NCBI GenBank assembly: GCA_026874595.1
Contig: CM049322.1
Coordinates: forward strand, 45,627,340-45,691,339
DNA length: 64,000 bases
DNA from: Sipunculus nudus
Lineage: Eukaryota; Annelida; Sipuncula; Golfingiida; Sipunculidae
Direction of reading: 5' to 3'
Shown one piece after another: positions 1,237 to 64,000 of the stretch. The number at the start of each line of letters is the position of its first letter. Position 1 is the first letter of the stretch. The notes below the pieces were generated by a model. That model ran no database searches. It saw only the letters and a program-made list of their open reading frames with translations, and had not been told where the DNA came from. Made by a program: the position numbers and the translations under genes.

Positions 1237-1452
1237 TGACTGTTGCTGCGTTTGGAAACTTGAATTCGTTGGAGAGATAGCAAAGGTACTTCAGAGCAGT
1301 TTTCGTCCATGCTTCAGTAGAAGGAGAAACAATAGGAGCACGACTCCACAGTGTAACCCGAGGGTTCTCACATACATCCTTAGGCTGGCCGTTACAAAAC
1401 CAAACAATAATATAGTTGGTGAGGTCTGTGTCGAAAATGATATTAAGCGTCA
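1237..1452 (-). CDS. Copy A exon 9: lipocalin domain 2
   Basis: 216 nt from a TTTCAG acceptor to a GTCA|GTGAGT donor. It encodes NIIFDTDLTNYIIVWFCNG, then LCYLSNEFKFPNAATV. The TDY tyrosine of copy B is leucine here. Confidence 0.8.
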
Positions 1453-2922
1453 CTGAAAGCAAGAAGACAATAATACTGAGCCTAGCAGTGCCGCCATCTC
1501 CAGAGTGAAGAAAAAACTACACTAATTTTCCATATAAATGTCTAATTATAATTATGTTTAACAATGATTTAATTTAATTGTTAGATTAAGAATATGACTT
1601 CCCCAAATGGTGTAACCCTTTAAGACTAAGATTATTTAGGCTGGTGTTGACCATATTCCTTTTCCGTAGAACTGAAATCAAATATGAAAAGATCATATTT
1701 TTATTTGTTATTTGTAATTTTATACTCTGAAATAACCTCTGCACTGTCACATATTTAAACCAGCAACTTTTTCTGCATGTAGAAGTTCAACTCTCGTGCA
1801 ATATTTTGTAAGAAATAACCTGGATAACATGTGAAAAATCACCTTTCCAGCCTTTGGCAATATTTGATATAAAAGCATATTATATTTCCAATCAATAATA
1901 TTCTTAAATGTTTTTCTTGAATATCTACTACAGTGGCGACAGTGTCCCAAAGGGATACAGTGATGAGGGCGTTGACATTTTGAGATACAGGTCGAGGGAA
2001 GGACAGATACAAGCAGAGAATGGCACCCCCCCCCCCCCCCATCAATTTTAGGGATCGGGATAGAGAAGTCTTTATTCGACGCAGCTGTTAGCGATTAAAA
2101 CCATTATTCATTTATCAATTTCGAGACTAAATCATTAATTAGTGTATAGTTTCGTCACAGTTTTCACAATAATGTTTTATTCTTAGTTAACGAGTTACAG
2201 GAACTAATCTGAACTGATTGAAAACCTATGTTTTGTTTTCTAGCGGTATGCTCATAATTTCGATATGTGATTTGTGAGATCCGAGTTTTAGTGTGTATAC
2301 GGAGACATATGTCTGTCATAAAGCGGAAATACGCTTATTATTGGACCACACTCATTTCAAATTATATTTATATGATACCGTTGTCATGGTTTATGTCCGT
2401 GATCGTTTTTCCTGTTGTCTCCGAGATGTCCAATGTTGCAGGCCCTAGCTGTTGACACTCCTGACCTTGGCTGAAAGAATAATATGAATGTATAGTGTTG
2501 GTTCGAAATTCGTGAGGCTAATCATACTTTATAAATGTTTTGCTAACCTTACAGTGTCTCACGTTTATTACATTTTTAGTTTGATTATTATTCGTACTTA
2601 ATCTTAAGAAGCTAAGAAAACTGGCAGAAAGTCTTGTCCACGGTAGACAGATAAAAACAAAGATAATGTAAGTTTAAACGTTTAACTTTGATTTACAGGA
2701 AACATAAAATATATGTTTTTTTTTTAATATAGCATCATTTTTTTTGCCGTACAACTTTCTAAGCTGCAGGCGTGGTCGGATTGATAATATATATAAAATG
2801 CCAATAATCTTTTTTTTATAAATTGCTGCTTTTATAAGGCATCTTATTCAAGAACAAAACAAAGAAACAAAAAACAACAAAACAAAGAAAGCCAACGACA
2901 TTGATAGTCAATATTGGTCATC

Positions 2923-2969
<47 letters not shown>

Positions 2970-3673
2970 CATGTATAAACACTTGCATATATTCGCTTTA
3001 CCAAGCATGCTAAGGAAACTGTTTATTTTGTATCCGTCAGGGTTCAGTCTTGTTGCTGAGAAGAGTTCTGTATTTTGTAAATTGCATTATATTTTGTTTA
3101 TGATAGCAAAGCATACTTAGCTGACTCCTCATACCATCGAGCCTTGTTTCATCTAGTCGCTTTGCGTCTGTTTCATGAATATTATCAGGGCAATTCAACG
3201 AATCAAATGACTCGTGTACACCTGATTGCGGTGTTACTCTCTCTTTGGGAAAATGGTTTTAGACGAAACGGTGGATCTAGGTGTTTTTTTTTGTGTTTAT
3301 ATAGAGCCACGTAAGAGTGTTCTATTTCTAGTGCATGCATTTTTCTTCAGATGGTGTAAGAACAGTGTATTGTTTTCATTTGGTTCGTTGAATATGATTG
3401 ACATTTGTTCAAACTTGATCATTGGTCATGAATTAGACGTCCGAGGGGCTCGATGCATCAAGGGCTCTGGCAGTGTAGCCGGCAGTGGCTTGATCGAATG
3501 AGAATATGGCAGGAGGATGCGTTCTTGAACATACAGACAAACTCACGCCACGTAATATGTGATGAATCTGGCGTCGTATACTCTCTTAATGTCAGCCGTC
3601 ATCCCCAGGAGATTTCTGTCCGGGCTTTGTCCGTCCGGGAGATACATAACTCTCAGATACCAACGACCAAATA

Positions 3674-3743
<70 letters not shown>

Positions 3744-5479: not shown

Positions 5480-8400
5480 GAGTAAGCCAGAAATCAAATA
5501 CATTGTTTTTCAATAGGTCAATGGGAGGCTTTATTTAAAAATGTTTATTTGGATAAAATATCTTACCCCCATCCTGTCATAGGTGTTGAAGTACGGGATG
5601 AATTTCATGTTGCAAGCATCCGCTGTAACAGTAATGTTTCGCAGACAGTATGACAGAATCAATAATATAAATTCCAATATTTCCATACTGTTACCAAACT
5701 CAAAGTCTTCAGTAATTTTCTTTATATCAGTGGCTGCTATGTATTTGATTTGATTTTTTTTTTAAATAAAATTTCAGCTGAGTAATATGTTCAGTTTGTA
5801 TTGCACACGGTGGGAAGTTGGAAATATGTGTGAATGTATATATTTGTATTCATTGAAACATCATATTATTTCTTAATTTTTATTGCATATTTTGGAGGAA
5901 AAGATAGACATTCTTGACGATGATAACCTATTTTCTTCAAAAAAAGAGTATGAACATACTTGCGGGGTACTCATAATTGTGATATACCACGTGTGACAAA
6001 TCGGTTTAGTTTGTTCCCAAGATGGCAGCCCCAATGAGCGGGTTCGACAATGGCGGAAAAAAGTGCCCTCGGGGATCGATCAAGGCACAGTGATGACATA
6101 AGAAAGTACTTAGGGGCGTAGCTATGATTAACGGAGGGCGTAATCTTTAGAAAATCGAAAACTGCGAAGGGGGGGGGGGGGGACCGCGCAAATATTTGAT
6201 TGGTGTTTAATGGGTATCATGAAAACTAAGTTATTTATTTATATATATTAAGAAATAATATTAGGAAAATAGTTGAATATGCAATGTAAAGAGAACATTG
6301 TCAGGCATTAAAAAATAAATACGAATTTTATTTTCCGAGAAACTCTTCTCTAACGTCTTTGCATCATATAGTCAAACTGTAGTGGGCTTAATTATTTAAT
6401 ATTTCTACTTCTTCAAACTTAGGATAGAAAATTTTAATCGTTTTTAGCATGTTATGTCAATGCCGGAAAGACGCATCTACGTTCATAACTTGCAAAATAC
6501 TATCTTTTTAATGTGCATTTTACCAGGGTCCATGGTCGTGACAGCACAGAATGTGGTTATTTTAAATAATCTCTAATGGATAAATAACAAAATCGAAATC
6601 TGATAATTAAAATGAATAAAAAAATTGGGAAAATATATAGTAAAATGAGAGAAATTGCAGTTCATTTGGGAGGCGCGCCCCGTGTTGGCCCCCTCTGGGT
6701 CCGCCATTGGTAAAATATAGCAAAGGTAATTTGGTGCACTCAATAAATATTTGCAGGATCAAAACTTATGAAATGTAAAAATAAGTCTCAAATCTGAGGA
6801 TACTAATGACAGAAAATTCATGATTGTGTTTTAGAAAATTGAATCAGTATTAGACAAGGGAAATTTCCAGAGGACGGCTTGTACAGGATGCGATGGGGGG
6901 GGGGGGGGGCTTGGCCCTCTGCGACACGCCCCCCCCCCCCCCCCCGCTACGCCCCTGAATAATCAATCTAATTATAGTAACATTACAGTCGGAGTTGGAA
7001 TGTTCAAAAGGATGTAGTACACTTACCGTTTGGTACTTGATCTTCCAGACAGTCTGCGTGATCGAAAAAAAAAAATGATTACTAAATATGCACATTTTTG
7101 GTATTCTTGGTCACACGCCCTTAAAATCGCATTTTTTTTCATAAAAAAAAATAAAACGATTAGAAAGAAATAAGTGTATCAGCGCCCTCAGCGAGCAGCA
7201 GGATAAACTATGCATTCCCTACCTAACGATGGATTTACCCGAAGTTAGCTCTCACATACACATATAGAACTGAACCAAGTATTTCTGACTGAGACAAAGT
7301 CAATTCATTTTCAGGTCTCTTATCGTGCTACGCGGCACGTTCCGAATTTGGCATACAAGGTTCCGTCGGGTTTAGAGGATCTACGGCTTATCTAAGATCT
7401 ACGGAACACCCATTGGTCGGCCCATAATCATTCGTGATAAACAAACTAATTCGGCGACGCTGATCCAAGGAATATTTTATGGTTTTCAATGTGTTTTCTT
7501 GTGTGGTTTTAGGGTTTTTCAACTATGTCTCCGAATAAAACTATATTATATACATATTCATAAATATAGATAAATATGTCAAATCTTCAGTTAAGGATTT
7601 ATCGAAGTGACCAGTTTGAATTATCAAATGTTAAAGTGAACGCTAGAGGACTTCGATCTTCTCCCCCCACACCAAAACACACATACATAGGCCCCTGTAA
7701 CTGGGTATTCCACATAATAACAATGTTATCAGTGCCGTGTGTGTGTTGGGGGGGGGGGGGGGGGGTCGGGGAGAACAAGTGTTTTCAGGGAATCTCCTTT
7801 GTCGAGTGTAGGTACAAGCTGAGGTGTGGGCGTAGGAGGGGCTACTGCGGTGTTGTAATTTTTAAAGTTTGTTCTAAATTCAATATATTGAATATTGAAG
7901 CTATTTCATAATAAAATACAGGGAATAGTATGACTTCTGAAACATACAAGAAGTGATAACGTTTTTCTTAAAAATACCAGTCTATAAAACCTGCATAATT
8001 GTATAGTTGGGCGTTTAATGGCTGAGTGTACAGTGTCGTGGAAACAGAAGAAATCATGTCATATATTATCAGTTGCTATTTTATTCATTTCTTAAACACT
8101 GTATTTCTTCATATTTGAGGATATCTGCGACACTTTGACGCTTTGTTGTTAACAACTTGTACTTTTACTAACTGCAGTTTGAGCCCATGTAAACAGAAAT
8201 ACCCTCATTCGAATACCCCGCATTTTTGTGTGTTTGTGGGGGGTGGGGGCAAAACATGGTATTTCTAGGTTGTTTAAATAAGTAGGCGAGGGGTGGGGGA
8301 CCTGTGGGGGACCTGTCTCCCACCAAATTGAGCCCATGGGGAACGCAATGTGAACGAAATGGGGACCGACCGGAAATATATGTAAAATTTGTCCGGCACA

Positions 8401-11001
8401 TGGTGAACGTGTAACAGAGCGTTTTTGCTGGCCACACATGGGAAAAGACAAACTGTCATATATTGGGCGTAGGTATCCAGTAACCTTGCCTGGATACCCG
8501 CCGAATAGAAATTTTTAAGAAAAAATGCGACCTAAACCCTGTACGGAAAATAAATCTTGTAAAACCGAATATTGTGTGTATGGCAGGGTAACTTATGCAT
8601 TCGGAGGAAAATCTGAATGTATTCGAACGACTAAGAATTTTCGATGATATTAATGCTTGAGTGCCGTAACCGTATTAGCGTCCCTTGACCTAACAGTTGT
8701 TTCTGATGTCGGAGCAATGAACCGATTGTGCTCAATATGCATTATTCTCAATCCAAGAGATTTGTCCTGAATATCAAGGATACACCAAAACAGATCTGGA
8801 CCCTGACGAGTATTACGTTTTATATGGGAGAGCCCAGGGAACTCCACCCACCAGGCATGTTTGTTTTTAACGATTCAAGGGAAAACCTGCCTGATTCAAT
8901 AGTGTACGAGACCTAATGATGGTAAAGTGGTATGCTATATAACTATATGAATTAAAATATGATTTTATTCCTACATCTGACACTTTTAGACTAGATATTA
9001 TAGTTTTATTGCCCATAAAAATGTCTCCAGTCCCTTACATCTTTCACCAGGTCTCTCACCGCGGAGAACGGCGATATGTAGAGAGAGAAAGCAGGAAGGT
9101 AAATTAGTAAACGTTATAGTGAAAGAAAAATTATAATGCTGAACTGATATGTCATATAACACAAAGATGATCGGAAGTATATGAAAAAAAAATCGCCCGG
9201 GACTAAGTACATGAAAGTCAACAGAGCGGGTTTACTGGCCATGCATATAAAAAGGCTAGACCCAGTTGTAGACCCAGTTGTGGCTCGCTGCCATAAAAGT
9301 ACATATTTGTTACTGTCAATGTGTTAAACCAGTCAATTCGTAAATTGCCTGAACTGAAACACTGTCCGATCTTTTGCACTTTTTTTGTCCCACAATTAAT
9401 TATGTTTAAAATCACTTAAGCAGCCGAAATATCTATCCGGGTTTATAATAATTATTAATGATATGCCAAAAATGGACATACTGCTAGTACATGAGTAGGA
9501 AATTAATAAGTTACACAGAGAGACAGTTGAAGGTCACTGGGCTTCGCTTTGTCTCCTTATTGCGTTAAGTCCTTTTAGTTGCAAACTAAGTTGTCTTAGG
9601 TGGACCGTACTTATATAATACTAGTCCTCATGCCGCTGATGAACAAGTGAGGTACCTCCAGACAAATGTATGACTTACACTGCAGACTTCATTATCATAG
9701 GGGTGTATATTAGTTAACCCACATATGTAATGATGAAAGGGTCGGTAAACATGTTATGATATATGGTATATCCTACAAAGTGACCCATAGCACTGGACCA
9801 TCCCCTACGCCTTTCTAGAAAATACTAACAAACTAAAACCTCACAATTACGACCGTTTCGGGGACTGACCGAAGTCGTAATTTGAGAGAGTTTGTATATA
9901 TGAAACACTAAGTTATGAGGATCCTTAATTCGGGACCAAGAGAAGTAGTCGTAATTCTAGGGATGGTCGCAATTGCTGGATGGTCGCAAGGCGGGGTTCT
10001 ACTGAACAATGTTTAGTGGTCATTTCATCATGGAGGACCAGGCGACCCAAAACGTGTCAGTAAAACTGATTGCAGATTTGCCCTCTATAAAAATGTTTAA
10101 ATGCATGTAATAAGCAATCAGTGTAACCGAAAATTAGGTATATTTTACAGGGATGTTTCAGGAATAATGTAAAAAAAAAGCTGACATAATTTATTCATTG
10201 GCAGAGTCAACCCTCGAGAGTGAAAACAGTACAGTTACAGTTATATATTGAAGAACCTTATCCACAAAAAAAGGCAGCAAGAGTGACAGCAAAAGTTTTC
10301 TGGATATATAAAAGCAAAACAAACAGAGGTAATTGGAGGACGGGATACTATACTATACGTTAAAAAACAGACACGTACTATTGTAGGTCGCTGACTTGTA
10401 GACGTAGTTGACGGACGGAATACACAGGCTTTCTCTCAGTGACGTAGCTGTGTCCAGCTCCGCATCTTTCATGGTCATTGTACGACTGATAATGTCAACC
10501 TGAGGCCGTAAGCAAACCCCGTCCTTCATGTACGCCGACGGGCAGAAGTAAGCCACCCAGAATGTGTTGAAACTGCCCCCAGGAGTGTACATGGTGCCAA
10601 CTGCAAAATAACTAATTTCTAATGTTCTAATTATTTTCAAGGTAGTTGTATGTTAAGTAATCAGATAACTTGCTTTAATTTTATTGTGTTTTTTCCTCCA
10701 AAACCGTTGGTGGGCGTATGTGTATCACTTTATTCAGCTTTGTAACCAAGAAAAAAATAGCGGACGAAAATTGAATAAATTGCACATGGTGCACACGTTT
10801 TGACATTTAGAGAGTGAATGAGAATCTACGATTAGATATTACAAAAATAAACATTATTCAGACTATCAACAAGGAAATTGGCATCAAGTAAGGTGATAGG
10901 CGTGCATATACACAATTTTATGAATTTCCAGTGTATTGATGCAATTAATCAGTGTGCTTATGTCCGTTTTTTTAACACTTGTAATATATATATATATATG
11001 T

Positions 11002-11086: not shown

Positions 11087-14000
11087 CTATGAGCATATGA
11101 AAGCTTCAGACCAATGGCGATGATCGATGTTTTTACGTCACTCACTCAATTCTGATCCGTCGTGCAGGGACGCCTCTTCGGGAATATCGGTGTTGAGGGA
11201 AATCCGCCTAGTCCTGGTCTTATTACATTTCCCGTTGGACTCCCTGAAGAACAAAAAACTCAGAAAAAGTCATAACACAAGATATGACCGTTGTCATTTT
11301 CCTGTATAAATCCTATTTTATCGATATGGTGGTAAAAAATGAGTATTCTGTTTCATTAGGATATACGTGGTTAATTAAACAGGCTATAGATGTAAACTCA
11401 AAAACAACAGTGAAAATCAAGTTTTGTGTTCATTTTCTGTGTCGCTTCAAGTTGGTTACAAATAAATGCTTTACGATCTTTCAGAAGAAACATACGGGGG
11501 ATTTACAGACACTCAGTTACAGCGGTATTTCTCTCACACATGGTAGGTGATGTCACAGAGTGTATATAAACATCGAACGATAGGTCTGGTTGATAAAAAA
11601 ATTTGCATATGTAAAGGAGTGGAGTCTGAGCTAGTTTTGTAATATGCTAATTTGTAAGTCATCTTTTCGACATGAATTTATATGACACTATCACACACCC
11701 ACACACACATATATATACATATGTGTATATATGTAAGCATACATAGGTGTATTTAGAGATTATACCTACAGGTCAGTGACGTTGAGGAACAGCACTCCTT
11801 TAACATCATACATGTCATAAATTGTACCATGCCATTCTCCATCGAGGGTCGTCATCCTCTCTACTGAATACCACCGCCCAATACACTAAAATAAAAATAT
11901 ATGACGTGTTTACTTTGGAGTCGGGGGTGGCAGATTACACGGTATTCGGATGGAGCACTGCACGGGGCTTGTTCTAAATACACACGTGCAAAATTCTCCA
12001 GTCAGCGGTTTTAACAACCAAAGGTTTAACCATTATCTCGACATGCAACCTGTGACATCTTTGTTTTAGTGTGTATGCAAGTTGGCAACCGCCTTGATCG
12101 GTTTAAAGAAACTGAGAACCTATCTGCGGAGTATCTGTTAATTAGGAGACGTATCTTTATTTAAGGTTGGAGAGGAATAAAGGTATTTTAACACTCCCGA
12201 ATCCTCAAATTATATAAGAATATACTATACTGTAATTTCCACCCTCTGTTTATGGAGATCCTCTGATCAGTGCTTTTTAACCTTGTATTCAGGGCAATAT
12301 TACTTCGCTTCATTGCCCCTCACTTTAAATTAAAAAAAAACTTAGAAATGTCTGTGTACATTCATACAACAGCTGGCATGTGTAAGAAAAAAATAGCATT
12401 TTGACTAAGGATATTGGTAAATACCCATGCATGTTTATTGCATTTCCGTATGCATGGACACCAGCATATTCCAAATGGGTTACTGGAAAATAACCAAATT
12501 GTTCCCCACACAGATGTTGACCTGTTACCAAAAAAATTGTATGCTCACATGTATTCTTTTTGTTATTACTCGTAGCCTAAGGTTAAGAACTGCCGACTGT
12601 TTAAAACAGTAATGATGCAACAGGATGGATGATCGCTGCAAACCGTTCCCGGGTATGACTCGTGTTACCACTCAAGTACAAGGTTATCTCCATAGTGAGT
12701 CAAGTATTATCGATATAGGATATAGGCTTGATATGAGAGTGTCCTAACTTTAAAATAAGTCTTAAATACGGTTTAAAGCAAGGACAATGACAATGGGACC
12801 TCCCGTTTCGCAAAACTGAAAAAAACATCATTTTTTTACAAAATGAGCTTTAGTTTATGTACATAAGCCACTTTCAAATTTCATCGACCTATTTTCGATG
12901 ACACTGACCTTGAACCTAAATTGACAAAAAAAAAAAAATAGGCTTACCGCATAATTGATAATCAATAAACTGTGTACGTTCAGATCGATTCCAACACAAA
13001 TGTGGTCGGTTGAGTGCTCACAAATAGTCTAGTCAATGAACGATTTTTATCAAAGGAAGTTGGACAAAATCGTAATCATTGGTTTTTTATCTGAAATGGA
13101 TTCATTTATGGTGTCTTTGTGCAAAAATAAAGCCCAACCCTTGGGAAAGTGTCATTTTCACACAAAATCCAAAATGGCCGACTTTATAAGGGGTGAAATA
13201 TTTAAATGGCCATAATTCCTTCACTAACTGACATAAAACCACATTTAAGGTATCATTTGCAACTGATTTTAGGATGCCTGTTGTTTGATGACACTTCTTA
13301 GGTCCAAAAATTATATATCATGCATAAAGGTCAAGGTCAATAATAATCATTATTATCCGTATATCTGCTCTTAGTTTGTGTTCATTTCATTGAAGCAATT
13401 ACTGTACATTTGTAACATCCTTGTGAAATATATTCACGTCCTCCTAACGATAGGTATATGTTTATTTTTTCCAAAAAAAATACAGTTGCACTTAATTATT
13501 CTGCTGCCAGATGTGTAACCCTGATAGACAAAGGTTAAAGTAAATATGGAATCCGTTCCCCCGAAGCATAAATGACAAGGATAAACCCTAGCGTATATAT
13601 TGGCGGCACCTGGACACATAAAAAAAGTAAAGTGGCACTGTGTGGGAACCTTATCTCATAAGGGTGTACCTGATAAAGTGCTATGTAAAACAGTATGTGG
13701 CTAAAGCAAAAAAAAATGCTTTCACGAATATAATAAAAAAATACGAGAAGGGATACGCATGACGAAGACAATGCTGGAGGTATCCAACTTCATGGAATGT
13801 ACATGAACTATGCATATATCTGGTACAACAGATTCATATTAATCTTTTATTCAAACTAATTATAACATGCGCATGTGAAATTTGTTTTCGTTTTCGATGA
13901 TACGGCATTATCAAAATAGCTACAGTGACAGGCTAGTAGGCCAACCAACATCTCTTTAGTGTCATATTTGTCCAAATTGTACAGTATCTTAGACAGTTTG

Positions 14001-29530: not shown

Positions 29531-29531
29531 G

Positions 29532-30236: not shown

Positions 30237-30271
30237 CACTCTAGCAAAATAAGCCATCTAAGCCACTAAAA

Positions 30272-30484: not shown

Positions 30485-30494
30485 TATAATCAAA

Positions 30495-32880: not shown

Positions 32881-32883
32881 AGT

Positions 32884-40756: not shown

Positions 40757-41266
40757 CTGAAACATCAGATTATGAAAATGCTGAATCTCACAGTAGTGCC
40801 ATCTAGAGAGTGAAGAGAGAACTACTTTATTCGTAACCCTGAGACTGTCACTGAAAAATGAGACCAAGGCTCTGATTGGTCAGATAGACTGGTTTATTTT
40901 GTTGGTCAAAGTTTACATTTTGTCAATTGCCTGCACCAGGCTGGGCAAGTTTCTTTCCTTTCTCTTACACCCGTATAAGTTATATTAGTTAAATACTTTG
41001 CTGTGGAAAATAGTTTAAAAAATCATTTGTTTTAACAACATGAAAGAAAGTTTACGATGCGATACCGTTATCATTGTATCTGTCCCGTATCAATTTTCCC
41101 TTAATCTCTTGCATTTCCAGTGTGGCTGGACCAAGCTGACGGCACTCCTGTCCTTGACTGAAGGATAGAGGAATACGTTAGCTTTACATAAACACATAAA
41201 TTTAAACTCTTCAATGGCAAACACACAAATACACATACCCCCCACACACATATATATATGTATATG

Positions 41267-45276: not shown

Positions 45277-45330
<54 letters not shown>

Positions 45331-46812
45331 GGGGAGGGGAGGAGTAGGATACTAAATAACAGTTCAGACACACATCCAATATCAACTAACCTGTTGTGAC
45401 AGTTTCGTCCGATTTCCTCAGACTGTGATGACTCATTACCGCTGGCCACTAGGTAGCGCTTTAGGTGCGCGTAGCGAGTCGTAGAAATGCGGCAGGTCTA
45501 TTTTAACCGCTGACGTTAACAACGAAACTGTCACAATATGTGAGCTGATAAAGTATGTGTATTTAACTTAAACTAGCATTCAAATAATTCAGTTGAAGGC
45601 ATCTATATGGAGAGAGGGAGAGAGAAAGACAGAAAGAGAGAGAGCGGAGATAAACATGCGTAGGTAAATATACAGGTATTACACAATTTACAATAATTTA
45701 TCTTGGATATGCCAGAAGTGGACATGGAGGACTGTATACAATATATATGTTGACAGACAGAGAGACACGTACTATCGTAGGACGCTGACTGGTAGACGTA
45801 GTTGACGGACGGCAAACACAGCGTATCTCTGAGTGACGTAGCTGTGGCCAGCTCCGTGTCTTCCATGATCATTATACGACTGACAATATCAACCTGAGGC
45901 CGCGAGCAAACCCTGTCTTTCATGTACGCCGACTGGCAAAAGTAGGCCACCCAGAAAGTGCTGAAACTGCCACCAGGAGAATACATAGTGCCAACTGTAA
46001 ATATACCAATATTCATGTCAATTGAACATTTACCAAGATGTTTGTAATTAGCGGGGGTTACAGGAACCGCAACCCCTCCATCCCCATCCCGCAAACACCT
46101 GCAAATGAGCGATAATTGAAAGTGTGCTACGAATTTAGCTTAATCAAAATAAATTTCAGGTACAATACCTGTCACCTATGGTTATTGTTCTGCGATAAGA
46201 GCAGTCTTATAATATCAACCATGTTTCAGATTTAGCCAGAGCATTGAGAGAAAGAAATAAAAGAGGGGAAAAGAATGATAGAAATTCCTCACACACAAAA
46301 TGATCCAAGTACTAATATAAAAAAATACTCTACTCCTGTAAACCTCCACTCCAGGCGTAGGAGGCTTAGAATGATTTCTTTAAAAATGCTTCAGATTATG
46401 TTCAGGGTGCATGTTTTGTTGGTATTAGAGGATTAGCCTTACATTTCATGTTTAACACTCTAATGCCCTACATTGCCTTAATTATATCACATCTGAAGCT
46501 GTCCTCATGAACAAGATAGGTGGGAAGTGGGTTCACAAAAAAAGTTTTTCAGGAAACGCTACTCCTTTTATGTTTCAGAGAAAATATAACGAGCGATCAT
46601 CACATAGTTATTTTGAATTGTGACGCGATTGTTTTTTCATATCAAATATACACTTAGGGAATAGTACTGTGTATAATTTCTTTTTTCAAAATGCAGCAAT
46701 AGGTACATATATATTCTCACTGTCATTTGACAAACCGACAGCCTTCCTATCTAGAAAAAAAAAGATTTACAAGTGGTGTGTAATTATCGAGTCAGGAAAC
46801 ACATACACACAG

Positions 46813-46846
<34 letters not shown>

Positions 46847-49800: not shown

Positions 49801-52800
49801 TTGAATCCATTGCTGTTGTGACTGCATTATTTCGAATTATGAGTTGCTCTAGCGACAATCCACCAATACCTCAATTATACATTATCAGCAATGTGGCCTG
49901 CTGAAACATCTTTGGAGCATCCTTGCAGCATGCAATTTTGAAAACAATTATCCTGAAGTGCCATGCACTCCGCAGTAAACGAAAAACGAGGTATTCTTAC
50001 TTGGCAGTTGTCTTAAAAGCAGAGCACAATTCCTTGTTACACTTGATCAAGACCTTAAGATTTTAGGCTTAACACAATGTCTCCTCTAAGGAAATGTTTT
50101 CTTAATCGTTGACATTCATTTTCATACAGTTTATTTATTTATAAGTAAGGTGAGGAAATTAGGAAATTTTAAAAATACCTTTACATTGCATTAAATCACA
50201 AGTCAAAGTGATTTGGGATATAGGTCATTTGTAAAATAAGCATTTCGGTTGAATTCACCTTGCAAATGCTAGTCATGCAGTAAACTAGATCCTCTTCACC
50301 ATGAATATGCATGGATTTTAGCATTGATTATAGATATGTATGTTTCTCTAAAGGACTCCCATTGAGAGATACCAGCACAGACCAAAATATATAATCTGAA
50401 ACATGACCAAATTTTTTTAATTTTTAATCAATACAATCCATGATATCACAGGCATATGTAATTACCCTATATTAATTGCTCTAGGTTGCTCACAAAAGTT
50501 TATTTTGAAATCCAATATGTTTTAGATAATAATTTGAAACAAATTTGACCATGGTTTTAATGGATTCGCTGGTATCACAATCATGGATGTTGCTTCCAAT
50601 TTAAAATCTTATCACATGCACATATAAGCAAATTCGGATAGAAAATTGCGGCCGTTTTGAAATTAAATAGGGCGGCCAAACTATACTTCTATATATTACA
50701 AGACATGTTTTGATTTATATGTTAGTATTACAAACACGGATGTTGTAACTACGGCGATTACCGAAAATAAATATAAGCAAAAGTCTGTTAAAAAATGACG
50801 GCAATGTTGAATATCAATATGGCGGCCTAATCAAATTATCGGAACCATGGATGTTCCTACCATTTGTATTCTTCTACGGTGCTCACAAGAAAATATATGA
50901 TCAAAAGTGTGTTAAAAAATTGCGTCCATTTTGAAATTCAACATGGCGGCCTAATAGAATTAGTAGCAAGTATGGCAATGGTTTTAATGGAATCCCTGAT
51001 ATCGAAAACGTGGGTGTCGCTGCCAGTTATACTGCTCCACATTGCTCAGATCTCCAGATTAAAAACAAAATATAAGAAAAATGGCCGCCTATTTGAAATT
51101 CGATAGGCGGCTGAAGACTTGACTGATAAAAATGGCATCTGATTTTTTTTTTTAATCAGCACCCCAAAAAAGACAAAGTTAGTCAATTAAAATTCATTTT
51201 TTGGCACGAAATCCAGTTGGAATGCACAACAGACTGTACTAACAGTTGATTTGGCCCCTTTAAGAAGCCGGGGCACAGTGCAGTTGCGTGACAAAAGTTT
51301 GCAGACCCCACTGCCAAGTATAATATGGATGTACTCACAGGTCAGTCACGTTAAGAAACAACACTCCTTTATCGTCATACATGTCGTAAACTGTCCCATG
51401 CCATTCACCAGGGACCACCGTAAGTCTCTCTACAGCATACCATCGTCCAATGCACTAAAGTAGAAAAAACAATATATACTTTCCCATCATAATCACACAA
51501 AAGACACCTGTTATAAGAGATTGATATAAATGTTCGGGTCAGTTATTGACCGAACAAGATGTTTTTTGTTATAAACCAGAAGGTAAAAATAAGTAAAACA
51601 AAACTTCTAATCACCAAAGCCTTCTTGTCTGAATGCCTGCCCAGTATTTCGGTCATCGAGATTTCCAAATCATTGGGATATTTCAGCCATGTAGCAGAAT
51701 GGACTTAAGACCTGCTATTTAATCTATCTTGGGATAGAGAGTTAAGTGCAAATAGAAAGTGTATCGTTGAAGTTTATACCGGATCTACGGTTTTTTCTAG
51801 ACCATGCCTTTTTCCTAAAAATTATATTATTGTATTTTAAATAAAGACATGATCTGCAACAATGTTCTTATTAAATATTATTTAAAACATGTCCTTTATT
51901 CTTTAAGTCATAATAAACATAATATTTATTTTAAAAAATCCTTTATTGAAATTGTTTTATTAATTAATATTTCATCTCATATAATTTACCAAAATTGATC
52001 ATAAATATGGTTTCAGTAAAACAGCGATATAAAATTTATTTATATGGATATAAAAAAGTATTTATAATTACTTATGCTTAGCGCTCCTTGGCTCTGAGGT
52101 TAGCGTTGGCATGTCTGAAGTGGTGGAGTATATTAATTGTATATTGAAAATACAATATATTAATAATGAAAATCATAGACTTTGATTCCATTCCTGAGAT
52201 GATATATAAAATGTTTGTAAAAATTAGCCAAACTTTGAATACCCTCCTACGACTGCAAGTCACCCCCCTTCTTGAAGATATATTGACACCACTATTCAAA
52301 CACCAGTATAACACATGCTTGCATTAACTAGTTGTTTAAGAACCGTTTAAGCCTTGGGCGGGTGTTTTGCACAGGGACTTTTCGGACTATGACATGCTGG
52401 ACATGACACGATAGTTCGGCCAGGTAAATATTATTATCATGAATAATCAATTCAAAATATTATTATTAATTGAGCATGACAATGTAGATTTTTCGTATAA
52501 GCCTCATATGTATAGGATTTCAAAATGCGAATTTAATATAAAGATTATTTTTAGCAATGGCCATCATAATGTACTTTTAAAATAATACTTCTATTTTTTC
52601 TATTTCATTTGATTGCATTTTATGCTTAGGAATACTTCTTGAAAATAGTGGTATTTTCCCTTTTTTATGACAAATTTTAGCTGAATGATACCGTGTTGTT
52701 TTAGAATTCAACAGTTTCTTGAAATGAGTCAGATACTGACTAATGATAATCATGAGTTTGAACATATTAAATAATGAACCAGTTTAAAACTCCAGACATT

Positions 52801-53174
52801 TTTCCATTGCACAATCTATATAGGATAACATGTAAATGTTGAAAAAAAAAACAATTAAAACAAATAAATAATAAAAACATATTGTAAAGATATCTATGTT
52901 TGAAGGGTCAATAGTGAATTAGAGGCGATATCTGGGTATATTGATCTGACCGAAGTATCCACTCATAAAAAAAAAGCCTGCCGGTAACGTCCTACATTTG
53001 TGTGTAATATATCATTAAGGTAGTGTAAAAATATGATTAAACTTTGCGTCATAGCAGTTTCAGACTTACCCTGGCAAAAGCAATGTCATCTTTGAACGGT
53101 TGGTCCTTAATCAAACACTGCCCAGCGCTGCGAACGGTAGTTACCACGGCAAGTATAAACAGCGCACGTATCAT
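40541..53174 (-). CDS. Two-domain secreted lipocalin-like gene, copy B (9 exons, 3' end not found)
   Basis: Assembled by eye from nine minus-strand exons with GT/AG borders and continuous phase; about 353 codons are visible. The product starts with a hydrophobic signal peptide ([11 protein letters not shown]...), so it should be secreted. Domain 1 opens with [10 protein letters not shown] and domain 2 with VMGRWYLRV, both the lipocalin G-x-W signature. Domain 2 also has [14 protein letters not shown], matching the lipocalin TDY motif. Cysteines recur at equivalent places in both halves (GKC/QEC, YFC/WYC, RVC/DVC, TLC/FLC). Lipocalins usually bind small hydrophobic ligands in a beta-barrel; the ligand here is unknown. 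Exon 6 lacks one base compared with copy A, which breaks the frame. The last visible exon ends in phase 1 at a GTGAGT donor, so a further exon is expected. Lipocalin assignment is fairly secure; the exact family is not. Confidence 0.7.
41066..41157 (-). CDS. Copy B exon 8: lipocalin domain 2
   Basis: 92 nt from a CCTTCAG acceptor to an AACG|GTATCG donor (a weak donor, but conserved in copy A). Phase 2 in, phase 1 out. It encodes [18 protein letters not shown] and is equivalent to exon 3, with the QEC cysteine matching GKC. Confidence 0.7.
41251..41330. repeat. (TA)n microsatellite, copy B intron 7
   Basis: Follows a CACACA stretch, about 95 bp upstream (in gene sense) of exon 8. Confidence 0.95.
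41405..41482 (+). repeat. tRNA-like SINE fragment or tRNA pseudogene
   Basis: TTAGCTCAGTGTTAGAGCA fits an A box (D-arm) and GGGTTCGATTTCC fits a B box (T-arm), about 33 bp apart. Acceptor-stem pairing is poor, so this is not a working tRNA. A TCTG-rich tail and (TA)n follow, as in a SINE. Confidence 0.5.
41487..41618. repeat. (TCTG)n-(TC)n-(TA)n compound microsatellite
   Basis: TCTG, TC and TA repeats in succession, directly after the tRNA-like fragment. Confidence 0.9.
42113..42240 (-). CDS. Copy B exon 7: lipocalin domain 2 GRWY exon
   Basis: 128 nt from a TTATCAG acceptor to a CGC|GTAAGT donor, phase 0 in and phase 2 out. It encodes [19 protein letters not shown] and then LLGMTADIE. It carries the second G-x-W motif and is equivalent to exon 2 of domain 1. 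Confidence 0.8.
42559..42599. repeat. (TA)n microsatellite, copy B intron 6
   Basis: About 20 TA units, 320 bp upstream (in gene sense) of exon 7. Confidence 0.95.
43366..43420 (-). CDS. Copy B exon 6: start of second half, 1-nt deletion
   Basis: 55 nt where copy A has 56. It encodes ADACNAKFI, then loses frame because a CCC run (copy A, ATCCCGTAC) is CC here. Past the break the other frame matches copy A again (YFNTYD). Borders are AAAG| and |GTAAGT. It is either a real frameshift or an assembly error. Confidence 0.65.
44879..44905 (-). CDS. Copy B exon 5: 27-nt inter-domain linker exon
   Basis: A 27-nt exon between a CTCAG acceptor and a GTAAGT donor, phase 1 on both sides, encoding CMEDKVPN between split codons. 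It is present at the same relative place and length in copies A and C, which is why so small an exon is believed. Confidence 0.7.
45279..45330. repeat. (GA)n microsatellite
   Basis: About 20 GA units in copy B intron 4; shorter and broken in copy C near 58100. Confidence 0.95.
45394..45536. mobile_element. Short MITE with TTGTGACAGTTTCGT ends (copy B intron 4)
   Basis: A 143-bp unit bounded by TTGTGACAGTTTCGT and its reverse complement, between exons 5 and 4 of copy B. It has a counterpart in copy C and none at the equivalent place in copy A, so it inserted after A split from B/C. No clear target-site duplication. Confidence 0.55.
45773..45994 (-). CDS. Copy B exon 4: lipocalin domain 1, C-terminal half
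   Basis: 222 nt from a TTTACAG acceptor to a GATA|GTACGT donor, phase 1 in and out. It starts [20 protein letters not shown] and ends near [10 protein letters not shown]. It is identical in length in copies A and C and fully open, with cysteines in YFC, RVC and TLC. Confidence 0.8.
46821..46846. repeat. (TA)n microsatellite, copy B intron 3
   Basis: About 13 units after CACACA, in the same place as in copies A and C. Confidence 0.9.
46994..47091 (-). CDS. Copy B exon 3: lipocalin domain 1
   Basis: 98 nt from an ATTCAG acceptor to a TTAG|GTTAGT donor, phase 2 in and phase 1 out. It encodes [17 protein letters not shown] followed by an acidic stretch. It is conserved in copies A and C and carries a conserved cysteine (GKC). 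Confidence 0.75.
47645..48010 (-). repeat. Dispersed repeat R1, copy 3 (inverted)
   Basis: Reverse complement of the 39340-39800 sequence, in intron 2 of copy B. Confidence 0.6.
48623..48838. repeat. 109-bp tandem duplication, copy B only
   Basis: TTAGGACAAACCAAAGTGG occurs at 48623 and 48732. The unit contains a GTTGTAATTTGAG...ATATTCGGGACCAG motif. Copy C has one unit near 61383. Confidence 0.8.
49606..49843. repeat. 119-bp tandem duplication, copy B only
   Basis: TTGGCAAGACACAAAGATG starts at 49606 and again at 49725, with nearly identical units. Copy C has a single unit near 62275. Confidence 0.85.
51339..51454 (-). CDS. Copy B exon 2: lipocalin domain 1 GRWY exon
   Basis: 116 nt. It follows an acceptor ending TTTAG, encodes [12 protein letters not shown] and then [16 protein letters not shown], and ends at CCT|GTGAGT in phase 2. 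GRWY is the lipocalin G-x-W motif at strand A. Homologues are at 11770-11885 and 63840-63955. Confidence 0.8.
51480..53060. other. Copy B intron 1, nothing recognised
   Basis: Very AT-rich; no credible exon or element. Confidence 0.4.
53070..53174 (-). CDS. Copy B exon 1: signal peptide and mature N-terminus
   Basis: Thirty-five codons from ATG to AGG, then a GTAAGT donor (phase 0). It begins [16 protein letters not shown], a typical signal peptide with likely cleavage just before GQC, and ends [11 protein letters not shown]. The ATG was chosen because it matches the start in copy A (MIRVLIVMITAVQS), although the frame stays open upstream. Confidence 0.75.
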
Positions 53175-53299
53175 ACTGGATACCTTTAAGCCTCCCAAGA
53201 ATATAAAGAAAAATATAGTCACTTCGTTCTTCATACGATTTGCCTCTCCTGTTTGGTAAAAGTGATGCCCCACATAGGTTCGCATTAACTCTACCAAAC

Positions 53300-56200
53300 A
53301 ATTAGACTAGATTGGCCGGACAGAAAAAGCCATTAGTACGATGGCCCCAAATAAAAGCATGTGTACCCATTGTGATTTCAACAGCTTGACTGAGTTAATA
53401 AATTGTGCATGCAATTCATTAAGTACGAGTTTTTTTTTTCTACAGCATTAGGAGCATTAAAATATAATACAGCATCAATGATGTCTTCAAACGGATGAAT
53501 ACAGCAAGCCACGACCCAGAGGCAATCAACCTGATTAAAGACAATTAATGAACGTGACCAAAATAAATGTTGAATGATTCAGCTGACCCGACCTTCTCTG
53601 TTTTGTGAGCCTATTTTCATCCAGTTAACCTGAAAAGCGGACAAGCTTGACAAGCGTAACAATGATAACTGTACCAAGCTGTAGTCAAATATGAAAAAAA
53701 TCAAGTGGCAAACAGACCATGTCCGTCACAAATCAAGCCGAAAAAGCTATATCACATACTTTGAAGATTTATATACAAGTGCGAACCACCAATAGAATAT
53801 TCATGTTAAGATTACACCTGTGCCAAGCTTTAGCTCAGCGTCGGGAGTTTTTTAATAAAAAGTATTTGTTCATCAACAAAAAAAAACAAGTAATTTTTTT
53901 TTTTTAAATTAGCGTTATTCTTGACCCGGAAACCGACTTGGATTTGGTGTGTAAAGAACGATCCCTGGGAACGGAACCTCGGAACTCGGACTTTGAATCT
54001 ATGGTATGGACACGGAGCTTACCCTGGAAGATGTGAAATTGACTGCGCCATTCCCCCGCCCCTCCCCCCCCCCCCGGCCCTTACCGGCATCCAAATTAGT
54101 TATATATCTGAGGATGTCATTTACATTTAGAGACAAGCTACAGCATGCAGGCACCGGAGAGACAAGCCTCTTTCTTTTATGTCCAAAATGATTAACATGG
54201 TATCTCCTGCCGTTTAAAATTAATTTGAAAAGCAGATATTCATTGAGGAATATTCTGCCTGGAGCATTTGCTTGCACAAGCGACCTAAGAAAAAAAAGCG
54301 AGTTCATCTCTCAAATACTTTTTATAATCTGCCATTAAAGCATTGTCCTATATTCTACAATTCAGAATGAATTAAACAACGTGAAATGTATGAAATGAAA
54401 ATTATACTTAGTAATTAATATTTCATCTCATAGCATTAAGCATTTTCATCCACAGACATTTTTTTCAGTTATATTTTTGCCCACTATTGTCACTATTAAT
54501 TACTAGTATATATTTTTCATAATAATCATTATTATTTGTTTATCACATAATTTATTAATTGCTTTAGGCTTCTCATTTTTCTAGTCCATAGTATGATAAT
54601 GCGGAAGTATCATATAATAAAAATATTCGTATTTCCTTTCGTTTCATATACTATGTATTCTCTTTTTTTTTAAGTTTATTTTTTATTTTTCACAGAGCCG
54701 ATGAATGTATACTTATCATTAGTAATAATCAGCAAATGAGAACTACGATACATTGTAATTTTATTTATATGTGCAATAATATAAGCTGTTTAATATTGCA
54801 ATATGAACAGACTCTCCGTCTTGATACGGGTGGTCACTGTCCAAGCGGAAGTGATCCTTCCTTACCAGTGGTCTCCTGACGAATAATTTTTTTGCACAGT
54901 GAATTTCGTTTGAATATTATATACGTATATCACAAATCTGCGTTATGTAATTTTTTTCTGATCTAATAAATTGTTTTGTGTTAAGAGTTCTTTGGATTAT
55001 GTACCACCTCCAGAAGCATAATTTCGTAAAACAGTCACCAGTCAGTTTGACCCATAAATGCATACATTCTGTTAAGGGGGAGAGACATTTAAGACAATGT
55101 TTTGCCCCGGCCAATAAACAAGGCACGTGTTTATTTAAAGTTCGGCGAATCGTCAAGAAAATACTGTATACTGGACAGAGGAAAGTGTAAATATAAAGAT
55201 TAAATTTTACGCACATGCACATAAACAGATAATAATACCTCGGAATACTAATATATTACTCATATTAAAAAAGTATAGAATATACTTCTAGAACCCGGAA
55301 ATGTATTAACCTATGACAATGTGATGCTCATTGGGATTATTATTGAACTAGCACAGGTACCTGGCGTTGCCCGTGGGAAATGTCAGCTCATTGAAACAAA
55401 ATCCAAGAAAAACAGAAACGGGATGTTATAATGTCCGTGTTTTTTCATTGGCTAATTGATGAATAATTTACAAGATGAATTAACTATGTGGTGAAGGGAG
55501 ACTGCATATTTCCTCGTTTGTAAAGGCGTACTCCGTCATATTTTGGTTAGGGTAGAAATGAGAAATAAAGAGCGAAATAAAAAGTCAGACTTTTACATTA
55601 TAGGTCTAGTGCACAGAGGTTAGTGAAATTTACCGACCTGGAGGATGACCGGCTTTTGGTACAGGTGAACGTAATGGCTTCACGTCGTCTGTTTTGGTGA
55701 CCTAATGTAATTAAGGCAGCACGCATTATGTTGCGTCTAAAGTGGAGATCTGCTGCCTATAAAGGAGAAGTGAAAAGAGCTTCTTCTTTTGAAAAGAAAA
55801 CATAAACAGTTATTGATACACCTGCGCTTTTTTTTATAAAATAACAAAAAATACATAGATAACTTATTTCATCGGCCGTTTCACTTTTCACATTTCCCGA
55901 TCACAATTATTCCTTTGGAAGTAATATTCTGTTTAACTTTTAAGTTTTTGGATGCATTTATTAAAATATTTGCAAGAATGAATGATGCACTGAAAACAGC
56001 GGGAATAGGTACAATATATACATATATGTTTGTGTAAACATATTTTTTTTCCTGTTAGAGCTGTGTTAACCACTCGCAGACAGCAGCTCTCTTTCTCTTT
56101 TGTAACTGTGACCTGCTGGAAATTTGGAATAATAATAAGTTAAGTCGGATCCCTACTAACGGGCATACAAAATTCCGTTACGGTCCCCGCATTGTACATT

Positions 56201-56456
56201 TTGGCCGATCATCATGCATGTCCGTTTTGCTTCCTTTGTTATCGGGATATATTATTTGTCAACTTTAGGTTGAGGGAAATACCTCAGAAAATATTGATCT
56301 GCGGATTAGGTGCTGCTACATGTAGTGGATCATTATTTTGTTCACAAAGTCTGTTAAACTCTAATTTGTTTCATTTTGTACCCTGTCTGTGATCTAAGAA
56401 AAGGTGACTTGGTGCACCCACCTGTGGATGAGACGCTTGCAGACACATTGATAAAT
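53300..56456. other. Between copy B and copy C, no gene recognised
   Basis: No match to lipocalin exons 6-9 seen. A C-rich run lies at 54057-54080. GGTACCTGGCGTTGCCCGTG at about 55357 resembles a motif of dispersed repeats. Any promoter of copy B would lie at the left end. Confidence 0.4.
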
Positions 56457-57715
56457 AATGTCCATAAATGTTCCGCGTTTCTTATATCCGGCACTAGTTG
56501 TGTATGTTTGTGACTAAAGCATTTAATAATTGTTATTTTGCTCTTATAAGATAATGTGTTTTTGTTTTAATTACAACACATTCCAATTTTGCGTATTTAT
56601 TAACCAGGAACCGCATCACAAAGTATCAATAATCTTTATTTGATGGTGAACAACACTCCTTCCTTGTATAAATTATACTGTAAAGGTTTCGGTTAAATAA
56701 TATGCCTATTGTCAACAGGCTGTATATTTTGCCATTTTTGTGAGGTTAGTTGGAGTGGTACATATCAGCTCATAAATGAAATATCAAGTGTGCCCTCTAG
56801 ACATATTTAGTTTCCAAACTAAACATCGGATGGCTTGACAACTATTTACGTATGTTTATTTTGTGAGAAAGCAAGCCATCATGCATGTCCATGCAGCCTC
56901 TTAAAATGTACATTACACAGAAGATCATAACTACAGAAACAAATGATTTTTGTATCGCGATTCTGTGATGATTTTTAATAAATACACCGTGTTGGACCTA
57001 ATTTGCACCAAAGAACCTTAACTTTATATGTGACTTCACATTTCTAATACTCCCTCCTGTTAAAGCTCCATATTAACCAGGTTTTTATCAAAATTCTTGA
57101 CTTGAGTTACTGACTATCTTTGTTATATCGTGCAAGGCCAAAGCCTTTCAGACAACGCCAATGTGAATAGATAATGAAGACTGTTTCAAAATATTGAAAT
57201 TTTGAAATGATATAGATGAAATAGCTATTCGATTTAACATTGTAGATGACACACCGATCCGAGCGTAAAGAGAACAAGGCGTCGCGCAAACGTGGCTTGG
57301 GGCCGCCAGCCCTGTGTCGCTAAATGAGATTCATTATAAACCAGCAGAGCAGCAACAGCCACGTCCATCTATTGACGAACGCTTGAACAGCCAGAACACC
57401 AGCATACAATCAGTTAATCCCAGTCTATAATCCTTACAACGAATGATATGGATGCGAATCATAATTTTCAGAATCAAGATCGTGTAAGATCGGTCATACA
57501 ACGATATATGGTAAATTCTGATCTAGTATCCGTAGTCGCCGAGAATATATGACTGATATGTACATTTACATGATATGTATGTTTCGATTGCTTGAAACTA
57601 GCTAAGAGCCAGGGACCATATCACCATTCAGCTCTGATTAAGCCAGGGCGATAGTTTGGTAAATAACGTGTTTTAGTATTGGAAGGAAGGAACTAGGGAA
57701 AGTGGTAAACTTACC

Positions 57716-57742
57716 GTTTGGTACCTTGTCCTCCATACAACC
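57716..57742 (-). CDS. Copy C exon 5: linker exon
   Basis: 27 nt encoding CMEDKVPN between a CTCAG acceptor and a GTAAGT donor, identical in sense to copy B. No downstream partner exon of copy C is visible. Confidence 0.65.
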
Positions 57743-58564: not shown

Positions 58565-58786
58565 TATCGTAGGACGCTGACTGGTAGACGTACTTGACGG
58601 AGGGCAAACACAGTGTATCTCTGACTGACGTAGCTGTGGCCAGCACCGTGTCTTCCATGGTCATTGCACGACTGACAATATCAACCTGAGGCCGCGAGCA
58701 AACCCCGTCCTTCATGTACGCCGACGGGCAAAAGTAGGCCACCCAGAAAGTGCTAAAACTGCCACCAGGAGAATACATAGTGCCAA
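58565..58786 (-). CDS. Copy C exon 4: lipocalin domain 1, C-terminal half
   Basis: 222 nt, open, starting [20 protein letters not shown] and ending [12 protein letters not shown]-like. By hand count it differs from copy B at roughly 6% of bases. Borders TTTACAG| and GATA|GTACGT are kept. Confidence 0.75.
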
Positions 58787-59704: not shown

Positions 59705-59803
59705 CTAATGATGAATCGCCATACAGGGACGCCTCTCTGGGGTTCATCTGGGTTTAGAGAAATCCGTCTCGTTCTGGTCTTCCTACATCTTCCGTTGAAC
59801 TCA
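59705..59803 (-). pseudogene. Copy C exon 3: 1-nt insertion
   Basis: 99 nt where A and B have 98. It encodes [20 protein letters not shown] and then shifts frame at an added base in a short C run (minus strand). Splice borders are preserved. Confidence 0.7.
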
Positions 59804-60775: not shown

Positions 60776-60869
60776 TTTTTATTAAATCTTCATGGGATTA
60801 ATTTAGTTTATAAAAGTCAGATATAAGATAAAGTACAGTATGCAGTGTCAGCTATTTTGATCCATCAGG

Positions 60870-63775
60870 ATTGGCGTGCTTAACTGGAGTTTATTGGCAA
60901 ACGTGTCAAATTTGGGGTGCTAATTCCAAATACCAGGTGCTTTTTTTGAAGACACGTCTTGAATTTCAAAATGGCTGCCCCTTTAATATAATTTGCCGTA
61001 TATCTGGACTTCTGAGCACCGTAGAAGGATACAAATGGTAGAAACATCCATGTTTGCGATACCAGGAATTCCATTAAAACCATTCCCATCATTTTTAAAT
61101 AATGGACTAGATCGCCATATTGAATTTCAAAATGGCCGCCGTTTTTTTTTTTTATCAAACTTTTGCTTATATCAGTTCTTTTGAGCCCCGTAGAAGAATA
61201 CAAGTGGTAGCAACATCCGTGTTTCTGATGCCAATATGTAAGTCCAAGCAATTGCCAATTTTTTTACAAGTATGGCCTGGTCATCGCCATGTTGAATTTT
61301 AAAAAAGGCCACCACTTTTATCCGCATGTTTTTTATATTGGAACAAGGTATATACAATGGATCCTCACAATTACGAAAACAATTAGGACAAACCAAAGTG
61401 GTTGAAATTTGAGTGTGGTTGTATTTATAAAATTCTTAGATACCTGGATCATATATTCGGGACCAAAAAAGATGGACGTCATTGTGGTAGGGGTCGCAGT
61501 TGTGCGGTTGCTGATAGGTAGGGTCCACCTGGACAAGATTTTAAACAGGTAGTAACATACGTGCTACAAATCGGGTTAGGCTGCAATATTGAATTTTAAA
61601 ATGGCCGCTATTTTAGCACATGTTTGTTTAAATCATAGACCTAGGAAAAGAAGCTAGAATAAATACATTGTGAATATCAATGTGTTGATACTAGGGGTTT
61701 CATAAAACCCTATCTGTGATTGTTTTTTTTTTTTTTTTTGTTTTTTTTTAGTTTAGCATCAGATCAGCAACTGTCTGTTGTGCAGGTAGTTCAAGACATT
61801 TCTCAAGAGAAGTTTTACCATCTTATGTTTCCTCCAATCCATTGTCAATAAGATGACGAATTTTCGGTCCTAACTCCTTGTACCAACTGCAAGTTATTGA
61901 TAATATCATTAAGATGAGGAATGTTTGGTCCTGAATCCTAATACCGTTTGCCAGTTAGCCATTTTGGACATAAATGTCTCAAGTCCTATGCTTAACTTTC
62001 TCCATACGATCCCAAATGGATATCTCTGCTTTAGATACAAGTAATCCTTCTCCCCTATCACTACCTGGTTGCTGAAGTGAACTGTCCTCCTGTACCGACC
62101 TTGCATCTATATACTTTGCGACAACGTGAAGTGAACCAAAATAAACAATCAAACATTTAGCTCACCAACTCTTACTAGGTTGCCTTTCCATGTCGACGAC
62201 TGCAGCTAGAATGTCCTATCCTAAAAGTCAGGACAAAGAGTCATTACTGTTATGTTAAAAGGACTAGGAATTTGGCAGACAATGATGTATAGCCAGTGCT
62301 CGTTTGGTTGAAGGTCTCCCTAACAATGTGGCAATAACTTCACTTTGAATCCCTTGCTGTTATGATTGCATTATTTCGAATTATGAGTTGCCCTAGCGAC
62401 AATCCACCAATACCTCAATTATACATTATCAGCAATGTAGCCTGCTGAAACATCTTTGAAGCTTCCTTGCAGCATGAAATATTATAAAAAAAATACCCTG
62501 AAGTGCCATGCACTCCGCAGTAAACGAAAAACGAGGTATGCTTACTTGGCAGTTGTCTTTAAAGTAGAGCACAATTCCTTGTTACATCTGATAAAGACCT
62601 TAAGATTCTAAGCTTAACACAATGTCTCCTCTATGGAATTTTTTTCTTAATTGTTGACATTCATTTTCATACAGTTTATTTTATTTGCAAGTAAGGTGAG
62701 GAAATAAAAAAAATACTTATACATTGCATTAAATCACAAGTCAAAGTGATTTTGTAAAATAAGCATTTCGATTACAATTCACCATGCAAATGCTAGTCAC
62801 GCAGTAAACTAGATCCTCTTCGCCATGAATATGCTTGGGTTTTAGCATTGATTATAGATATGTATGTTTCTCTAAAGGACTCCCACTGAGAGATACCAGC
62901 AAAGACCAAAATATATAATCTGTAACATGACCAAAATTTTTGAATTTTTAATCAATACAGTCCATGATGTCTCAGGCATATGTAACTACCCTATATTAAT
63001 TGCTCTAGGTTGCTCACAAAAGTTTATTTTGAAATCCAATATGTTTTAGATAATAATTTGAAACAAATATGACCATGGCTTTAATGGATTCGCTGGTATC
63101 ACAATCATGGATGTTGCTACCAATTTAAAATCTTATCTGATATCGAAAACGTGGCCGCCTATTTGAAATTCAAATGGCGGCTGAAGACTTGGCTGATAAA
63201 AATGGCATCTGATTTTTTTTTTTAATCAGCACCCCAAAAGTGACAAAGTTAGACAATTAAAATTCATTTTTTGGCACGAAATCCAGTTGGAATATATAAC
63301 AGGCTGTACTACTCCCACTGAGAGATACCAGCAAAGACCAAAATATATAATCTGTAACATGACCAAAATTTTTGAATTTTTAATCAATACAGTCCATGAT
63401 GTCTCAGGCATATGTAACTACCCTATATTAATTGCTCTAGGTTGCTCACAAAAGTTTATTTTGAAATCCAATATGTTTTAGATAATAATTTGAAACAAAT
63501 ATGACCATGGCTTTAATGGATTCGCTGGTATCACAATCATGGATGTTGCTACCAATTTAAAATCTTATCTGATATCGAAAACGTGGCCGCCTATTTGAAA
63601 TTCAAATGGCGGCTGAAGACTTGGCTGATAAAAATGGCATCTGATTTTTTTTTTAATCAGCACCCCAAAAGTGACAAAGTTAGACAATTAAAATTCATTT
63701 TTTGGCACGAAATCCAGTTGGAATATATAACAGGCTGTACTAACAGTTGATTCGGCCCCTTTAAGAAGCCGGGGC
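60870..63775. mobile_element. Foldback-like element, copy C counterpart
   Basis: Equivalent to 48100-51250, but most of the right arm is deleted and the remaining end is duplicated in tandem (62879-63310 and 63311-63741, differing at a poly-T run). Confidence 0.5.
62879..63741. repeat. Tandem duplication of about 432 bp
   Basis: ACTCCCACTGAGAGATACC begins both units (62879 and 63311). The units look almost identical apart from one T in a poly-T run, so the duplication is recent. Copy B has one unit only. Confidence 0.85.
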
Positions 63776-63839
63776 ACAGTGCAGTTGGGTGACAAAAGTT
63801 TGCAGACCCCACCGTCAAGTATAATATGGATGTACTCAC

Positions 63840-63955
63840 AGGTCAGTTACGTTAAGAAACAACACTCCTTTATCGTCATACATGTCGTAAACTGTCCCAT
63901 GCCATTCAACAGGGACCACCGTAAGTCTCTCTACAGTATACCATCGTCCAATGCA
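63840..63955 (-). CDS. Copy C exon 2: lipocalin GRWY exon
   Basis: 116 nt, [18 protein letters not shown] then [16 protein letters not shown], donor CCT|GTGAGT. Nearly identical to copy B and open. Confidence 0.75.
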
Positions 63956-64000
63956 CTAAAGTAGAAAAAAAACTATATATACTATCTCATCATAATCACA

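Follow-up and report, generated by a model that had tools for sequence, protein, structure and literature searches.

Most lipocalins are single barrels, and three conserved regions (GxW, TDY and an arginine) define the kernel members of the family. Bilin-binding protein, insecticyanin, lipocalin Q83 and sandercyanin are single-domain proteins, as are the mouse Mup lipocalins. Apolipoprotein D is described as a monodomain protein that has two disulfides and whose pocket takes mainly hydrophobic ligands (PMC8530192), some tick salivary lipocalins as double (PMC9779611), the Plutella polycalin, a midgut protein, as comprising fifteen lipocalin-like structures (PMC10145054), and the mouse Mup cluster as a lipocalin expansion on a single chromosome with many pseudogenes (PMC6381713). 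Here we analysed a stretch of 64,000 nucleotides from Sipunculus nudus (assembly GCA_026874595.1, contig CM049322.1, positions 45,627,340 to 45,691,339 of the forward strand), hereafter called the window, in which the original prediction had placed a tandem array of genes for secreted proteins with two lipocalin domains. Judged from their sequence, these genes probably belong to a lineage-specific family of secreted, cysteine-rich carriers with two lipocalin domains each, which arose by internal duplication.

Compared with members of the lipocalin/cytosolic fatty-acid binding family (Pfam PF00061), namely bilin-binding protein, insecticyanin, lipocalin Q83, sandercyanin and apolipoprotein D, the genes described here are alike in the GxW motif, the S-R positions, the TDY motif of the second domain (D2), the putative leader and the extracellular-type cysteines, but they encode two domains instead of one, have no TDY in the first domain (D1) and contain further conserved cysteines (VC, LC). 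The two-domain architecture is real and uncommon; multi-domain lipocalins, with two and with fifteen domains, are already known. The polycalins of Lepidoptera also carry several lipocalin-like domains per chain, although about fifteen there compared with two here. The double-lipocalin salivary proteins of ticks likewise have two domains; these are arthropod proteins, and the likeness is one of description. The mouse Mup cluster resembles the family in its expansion on a single chromosome but consists of single-domain genes. No publication on the two-domain family was found among the literature matches listed, which does not prove its absence, and searches within PMC8214410, PMC4532494 and PMC6381713 turned up nothing on animal lipocalins with two domains.

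Two-domain genes in the window and along the chromosome

Comparison of the window with itself yielded matching minus-strand peptides at three places, and the exons were then delimited by reading splice sites. In copy B (53174-40541) as in copy C (17596-1237), a leader exon (e1) precedes exons e2-e5, which encode D1, and e6-e9, which encode D2; each domain has its own GRWY exon, and e5 and e6 provide the linker and the N-terminal portion of D2. Inside the window copy A (63955-57715) comprises e2-e5, and its e1 lies outside at window coordinate 65848. Queries with e7, e8 and e9 gave no match between e5 of copy A and the start of copy B, leaving A without a second GRWY. Three same-strand copies with two GRWY domains had been predicted: all three lie on the minus strand and B and C do encode two domains, but A carries D1 only.

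In copy B, e1 (53070..53174) contains the start codon and a hydrophobic leader followed by AGQC, and ends in phase 0. The D1 exons are e2 with the GRWY motif (51339..51454, phase 0 to 2), e3 (46994..47091, phase 2 to 1), the second motif exon e4 (45773..45994, phase 1 to 1), in which GGSF stands at the place of TDY, and e5 (44879..44905, phase 1 to 1), which encodes the C-terminal Cys of D1 and the linker. D2 starts with e6 (43366..43420), whose frame is broken, and continues with e7 carrying GRWY (42113..42240, phase 0 to 2), e8 (41066..41157, phase 2 to 1) and e9 carrying TDY (40541..40756, phase 1 to 1). The corresponding exons of copy C are e1 (17499..17596), the leader, with a broken frame, the D1 exons e2 with GRWY (11770..11885), e3 (11146..11243), e4 (10379..10600) and e5 with the linker (7027..7053), and the D2 exons e6 for the N-terminal part (5567..5622), e7 with GRWY (3547..3674), e8 (2379..2470) and e9 with the TDY region (1237..1452). 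From e2 to e9 copy C is open over 318 codons with no stop. A (TA)33 run at 3676-3741 abuts the 3' splice site of its e7 (3674); the acceptor at this place in copy B is ordinary.

Introns in all gene models follow the GT-AG rule, and the exon joins of B and C are in phase. The e1/e2/e3/e4/e5 boundaries show intron phases 0, 2, 1 and 1, and the same series 0, 2, 1, 1 recurs in D2 at the e6/e7/e8/e9 boundaries and the end of e9. Enumeration of splice-compatible frames failed for e6, which was located through a short match beside conserved DNA. Homologues of e1 are present in copies A, D, X40, Y and Z (the copies outside the window are described below), and the leader is hydrophobic, as judged by eye, in A, B, X40, Y and Z. 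When the DNA 3' of e9 was compared among the copies, no common open frame with a common acceptor was found for a terminal exon e10, a point against the proposed two-domain family. In all seven copies compared (B, C, X40, Y, Z, D and E), a conserved block of approximately 70-100 bases lies a few hundred bases 3' of e9 (40346-40249 in B, 952-886 in C); it has no shared acceptor with an open frame and is possibly a repeat.

The D1 GRWY exon was searched across the genome assembly of the species (1.43 Gb in 153 contigs, the window being on contig 17) at E 0.001 or better. At least 32 matches were obtained, all on contig 17 and hence on the same chromosome as the window; among these 32, 20 had at least 67% identity and 12 had 44-57%. 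They lie on both strands, in clusters at about 10.2-11.1, 19.5, 21, 40.6, 45-46 and 50.9 Mb. Twelve loci, accounting for 11 of the 32 matches, were examined in detail: A to F, X40, Y, Z, K11 and the loci at 19.5 and 46.05 Mb. X40 (40.57 Mb), Y (45.50 Mb) and Z (45.56 Mb) are intact, each with nine exons of identical lengths, canonical splice sites and no stops over 353 amino acids up to e9. K11 (11.08 Mb) is intact from e2 to e9, and its e1 was not located within the stretch fetched. The predicted local array of genes with two lipocalin-type domains in a multi-cysteine form is supported.

Both GxW exons (e2 and e7) were matched in ten of the twelve loci, the exceptions being A, which has no D2, and F, a remnant. 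The 46.05 Mb locus contains stops in several matched stretches. The second GRWY motif varies: X40 has GLWY and the 19.5 Mb locus GNWY. At the latter locus D1 is only 36% identical to that of X40; both domains are present there with the same phases (by eye), and e8 was not located. Since so divergent a locus has both domains and the same phases, the fusion would predate the split of these clades. We suggest that tandem duplication of an ancestral single secreted lipocalin gene was followed by an in-frame fusion that kept the intron phases and gave D1-linker-D2, and that e5-e6 represent the short linker of this fusion. The array may then have expanded by segmental duplication, with the local members either decaying or mis-assembled. 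Such a history would show clearly how a fused gene, its two halves retaining their intron phases and D1 released from TDY, can multiply along a chromosome by birth and death.

Substitutions between copies point to coding constraint. The nonsynonymous and synonymous rates (dN/dS) between B and C over seven exons were 0.158/0.596 (about 0.27; Fisher p 8e-15 on counts), and the 15 pairs among six copies gave a mean dN/dS of 0.21 for D1 and 0.37 for D2. D1 and D2 are both under purifying selection, and the low means indicate that the two halves have been maintained at the protein level.

The sequence motifs and profile matches of D2 identify it as a lipocalin. GxWY is invariant over six aligned D2 domains, reading GRWY in B and C, and FDTDY is present in five of the six; the e9 motif FDTDYTNY is replaced by FDTDLTNY in copy C. 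S-R, at a position which we take to be the Arg of the third conserved lipocalin region, is invariant in D2 as well as in D1. The proposed motif pair of the original prediction was therefore found in part, GxW in both domains and TDY in D2 only. A profile of the six D2 (A5) searched against PDB gave lipocalins in nine of ten matches (best E 9e-4), where lipocalins were counted, as in the other PDB searches, by molecule name and DigA16 and odorant binding protein 3 were assumed to belong to them. Other PDB searches returned lipocalins in two of five matches (D2 of B alone), six of seven (A1) and eight of nine (A2). With the PF00061 cut-off at 23 bits, D2 of K11 passes at 24.6 bits, and D2 of B (22.4), Y (18.3) and X40 (15.5) remain below. 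Against the proposed two-domain family, Pfam gave no hit for three of four proteins searched together, D2 of copy C among them, or for the intact Z. D2 of copy C alone had no match in PDB. When the conserved exons were submitted to Pfam as unspliced open frames from stop to stop, only one of five gave matches, which were weak and unrelated; introns hide the domain. NCBIfam, Rfam and tRNA scans gave nothing.

Frame breaks and the proposed function of the products

The explanation that competes most seriously, and falls only a little short of an even chance, treats copies A, B and C as pseudogenes that yield no functional protein, relics of a family still alive elsewhere on the chromosome. The original reconstruction of the exons agrees with the GT-AG introns and the in-phase joins, but in the assembly each of the three copies has a frame break, A in e3, B in e6 and C in e1, and copy A has no D2. 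The flanking copies are also damaged: D is broken in e4, E in e7, which is split over two frames, and F has a stop in e4 and no matches to e2 and e7-e9. Between A and B, one-base insertions or deletions occur at 1/463 in exons and 25/6778 outside, that is, they are not significantly rarer in coding sequence, and dN/dS (0.037/0.066) cannot be distinguished from 1 on counts (p 0.34). These observations count against functional genes in the window.

On the other hand, A, B and C each showed a single break, and the sequence is otherwise under purifying selection, as the B-C comparison indicates. Exons also have proportionally fewer A-B substitutions (17/463) than the sequence outside them (471/6778; p 0.005), and all modelled splice sites are kept. 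By eye, the breaks fall within short homopolymer runs, and long-read assemblies often err in such runs. The breaks in A, B and C may be assembly errors or signs of recent decay.

For the family as a whole we infer a carrier function by transfer from apolipoprotein D. Each barrel would be closed by disulfides of the conserved cysteines (N-terminal C, EC/KC, FC, VC and LC) and would bind a small hydrophobic ligand. D2 retains motifs of the apolipoprotein-D/bilin-binding type, and D1, having lost TDY, may bind another ligand or serve as a tethered partner of D2. Such a protein would be secreted, carry ligands at two sites and have diversified as genes were gained and lost, which makes it a candidate for biochemistry. 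A structural role in shell, mucus or egg coat, as the original prediction also considered, is unlikely. It would agree with the leader, the expanded family and a cysteine-rich, acidic chain (predicted isoelectric point about 5), but the 353-amino-acid products have no repetitive or low-complexity stretch (by eye) and the conserved barrel motifs fit a carrier.

Origin of copy A and relationship of the two domains

The D1 exons of copy A are e2 with GRWY (63840..63955), e3 (59705..59803), e4 (58565..58786) and e5 (57715..57741), all on the minus strand. A segment at 43646..56451, which contains e1-e5 of copy B with flanks and whose left end lies in intron 5, is repeated at 56436-about 67635. The blocks are collinear with 79-94%, mostly 86-94%, identity and some gaps; B-side positions 53677-54998, for example, are unmatched in the copy A segment. 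This collinear repetition with an end in intron 5 suggests that copy A is most likely a tandem duplicate of the 5' half of the gene with the break inside that intron. In the copy A intron between e2 and e3, a 433-base tandem duplication (62879-63742) is 99.8% identical and, given this identity, probably postdates the A-B duplication.

As the end of e5 and the start of e6 are both in phase 1, the A cassette could be spliced to D2 of copy B. It is accordingly conceivable, but quite improbable, that A and B form one locus in which the promoter was duplicated together with e1-e5, so that two interchangeable D1 cassettes stand before a single shared D2; equally improbable is its consequence, that the upstream cassette skips the D1 of B and splices to the shared D2, giving alternative first barrels.

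It is still less probable that D2 is the only lipocalin and D1 has another fold that resembles it by chance. Several results nevertheless favour this possibility and weigh against two lipocalin domains. Profiles of D1 alone found no lipocalin in PDB (none of two matches with A3, none of four with A4), TDY is absent, no D1 reaches the Pfam cut-off and nothing was found in D1 of B and C. The best D1 score, that of the 19.5 Mb copy, was 13.1 bits for PF00061 (E 0.12, profile positions 2-142 of 145). The profile search suggested with the original prediction supports lipocalin membership for D2, in Pfam and PDB, and not for D1 by itself. With two sequences per domain, the profiles of D1 and D2 matched each other weakly (probability 8%). 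In shuffle controls for four copy pairings, 0, 1, 6 and 17 of 2000 shuffles reached the real D1-D2 score, the last value, and the least favourable, being that of D1C-D2C.

A different fold is, however, difficult to reconcile with the hhalign match between D1 and D2 (E 5.4e-5 over 141 columns, probability 67%). All three window copies have GRWY in D1, and IGRWY and S-R are among the columns invariant over seven D1. All seven PDB matches of D1 of B alone were to the lipocalin sandercyanin and in register, although with E values of 0.16-0.44, and D1 and D2 share their intron phases. These data support D1 as a diverged homologue of D2, its assignment to the lipocalins resting on D2, the GRWY and S-R positions and the intron phases. 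Since no D1 reaches the Pfam cut-off, D1 is classified as a homologue of D2 and not as a proven member of the lipocalins.

That D1 and D2 are two separate single-domain genes in tandem is the least probable view, for although each half resembles a whole lipocalin gene and copy A is a D1 without D2, at the loci searched the query with the e1 leader found matches (E < 0.02) ahead of D1 exons only and never before e6, where a leader of unrelated sequence would escape it; X40, Y, Z, K11 and C have an in-phase e5-e6 junction with canonical sites, and the two GxW exons occur together at all examined loci but A and F, even where D1 is strongly diverged.

Other elements in the window

Between copies B and C, remains of a retroelement are located on the plus strand at 29478-32452, with matches to Integrase_H2C2 (E 5e-21) and RVT_1 (E 2.5e-17) and a match to rve below the cut-off. 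The integrase lies upstream of the reverse transcriptase on the same strand, an order that would be unusual for a Ty3-like element (Gmr1-like); nested fragments are possible. Minisatellite-like tandem repeats were observed at 36802-37638 (unit 277 bases), 49606-49846 (unit 119 bases) and 48622-48826 (unit 109 bases).

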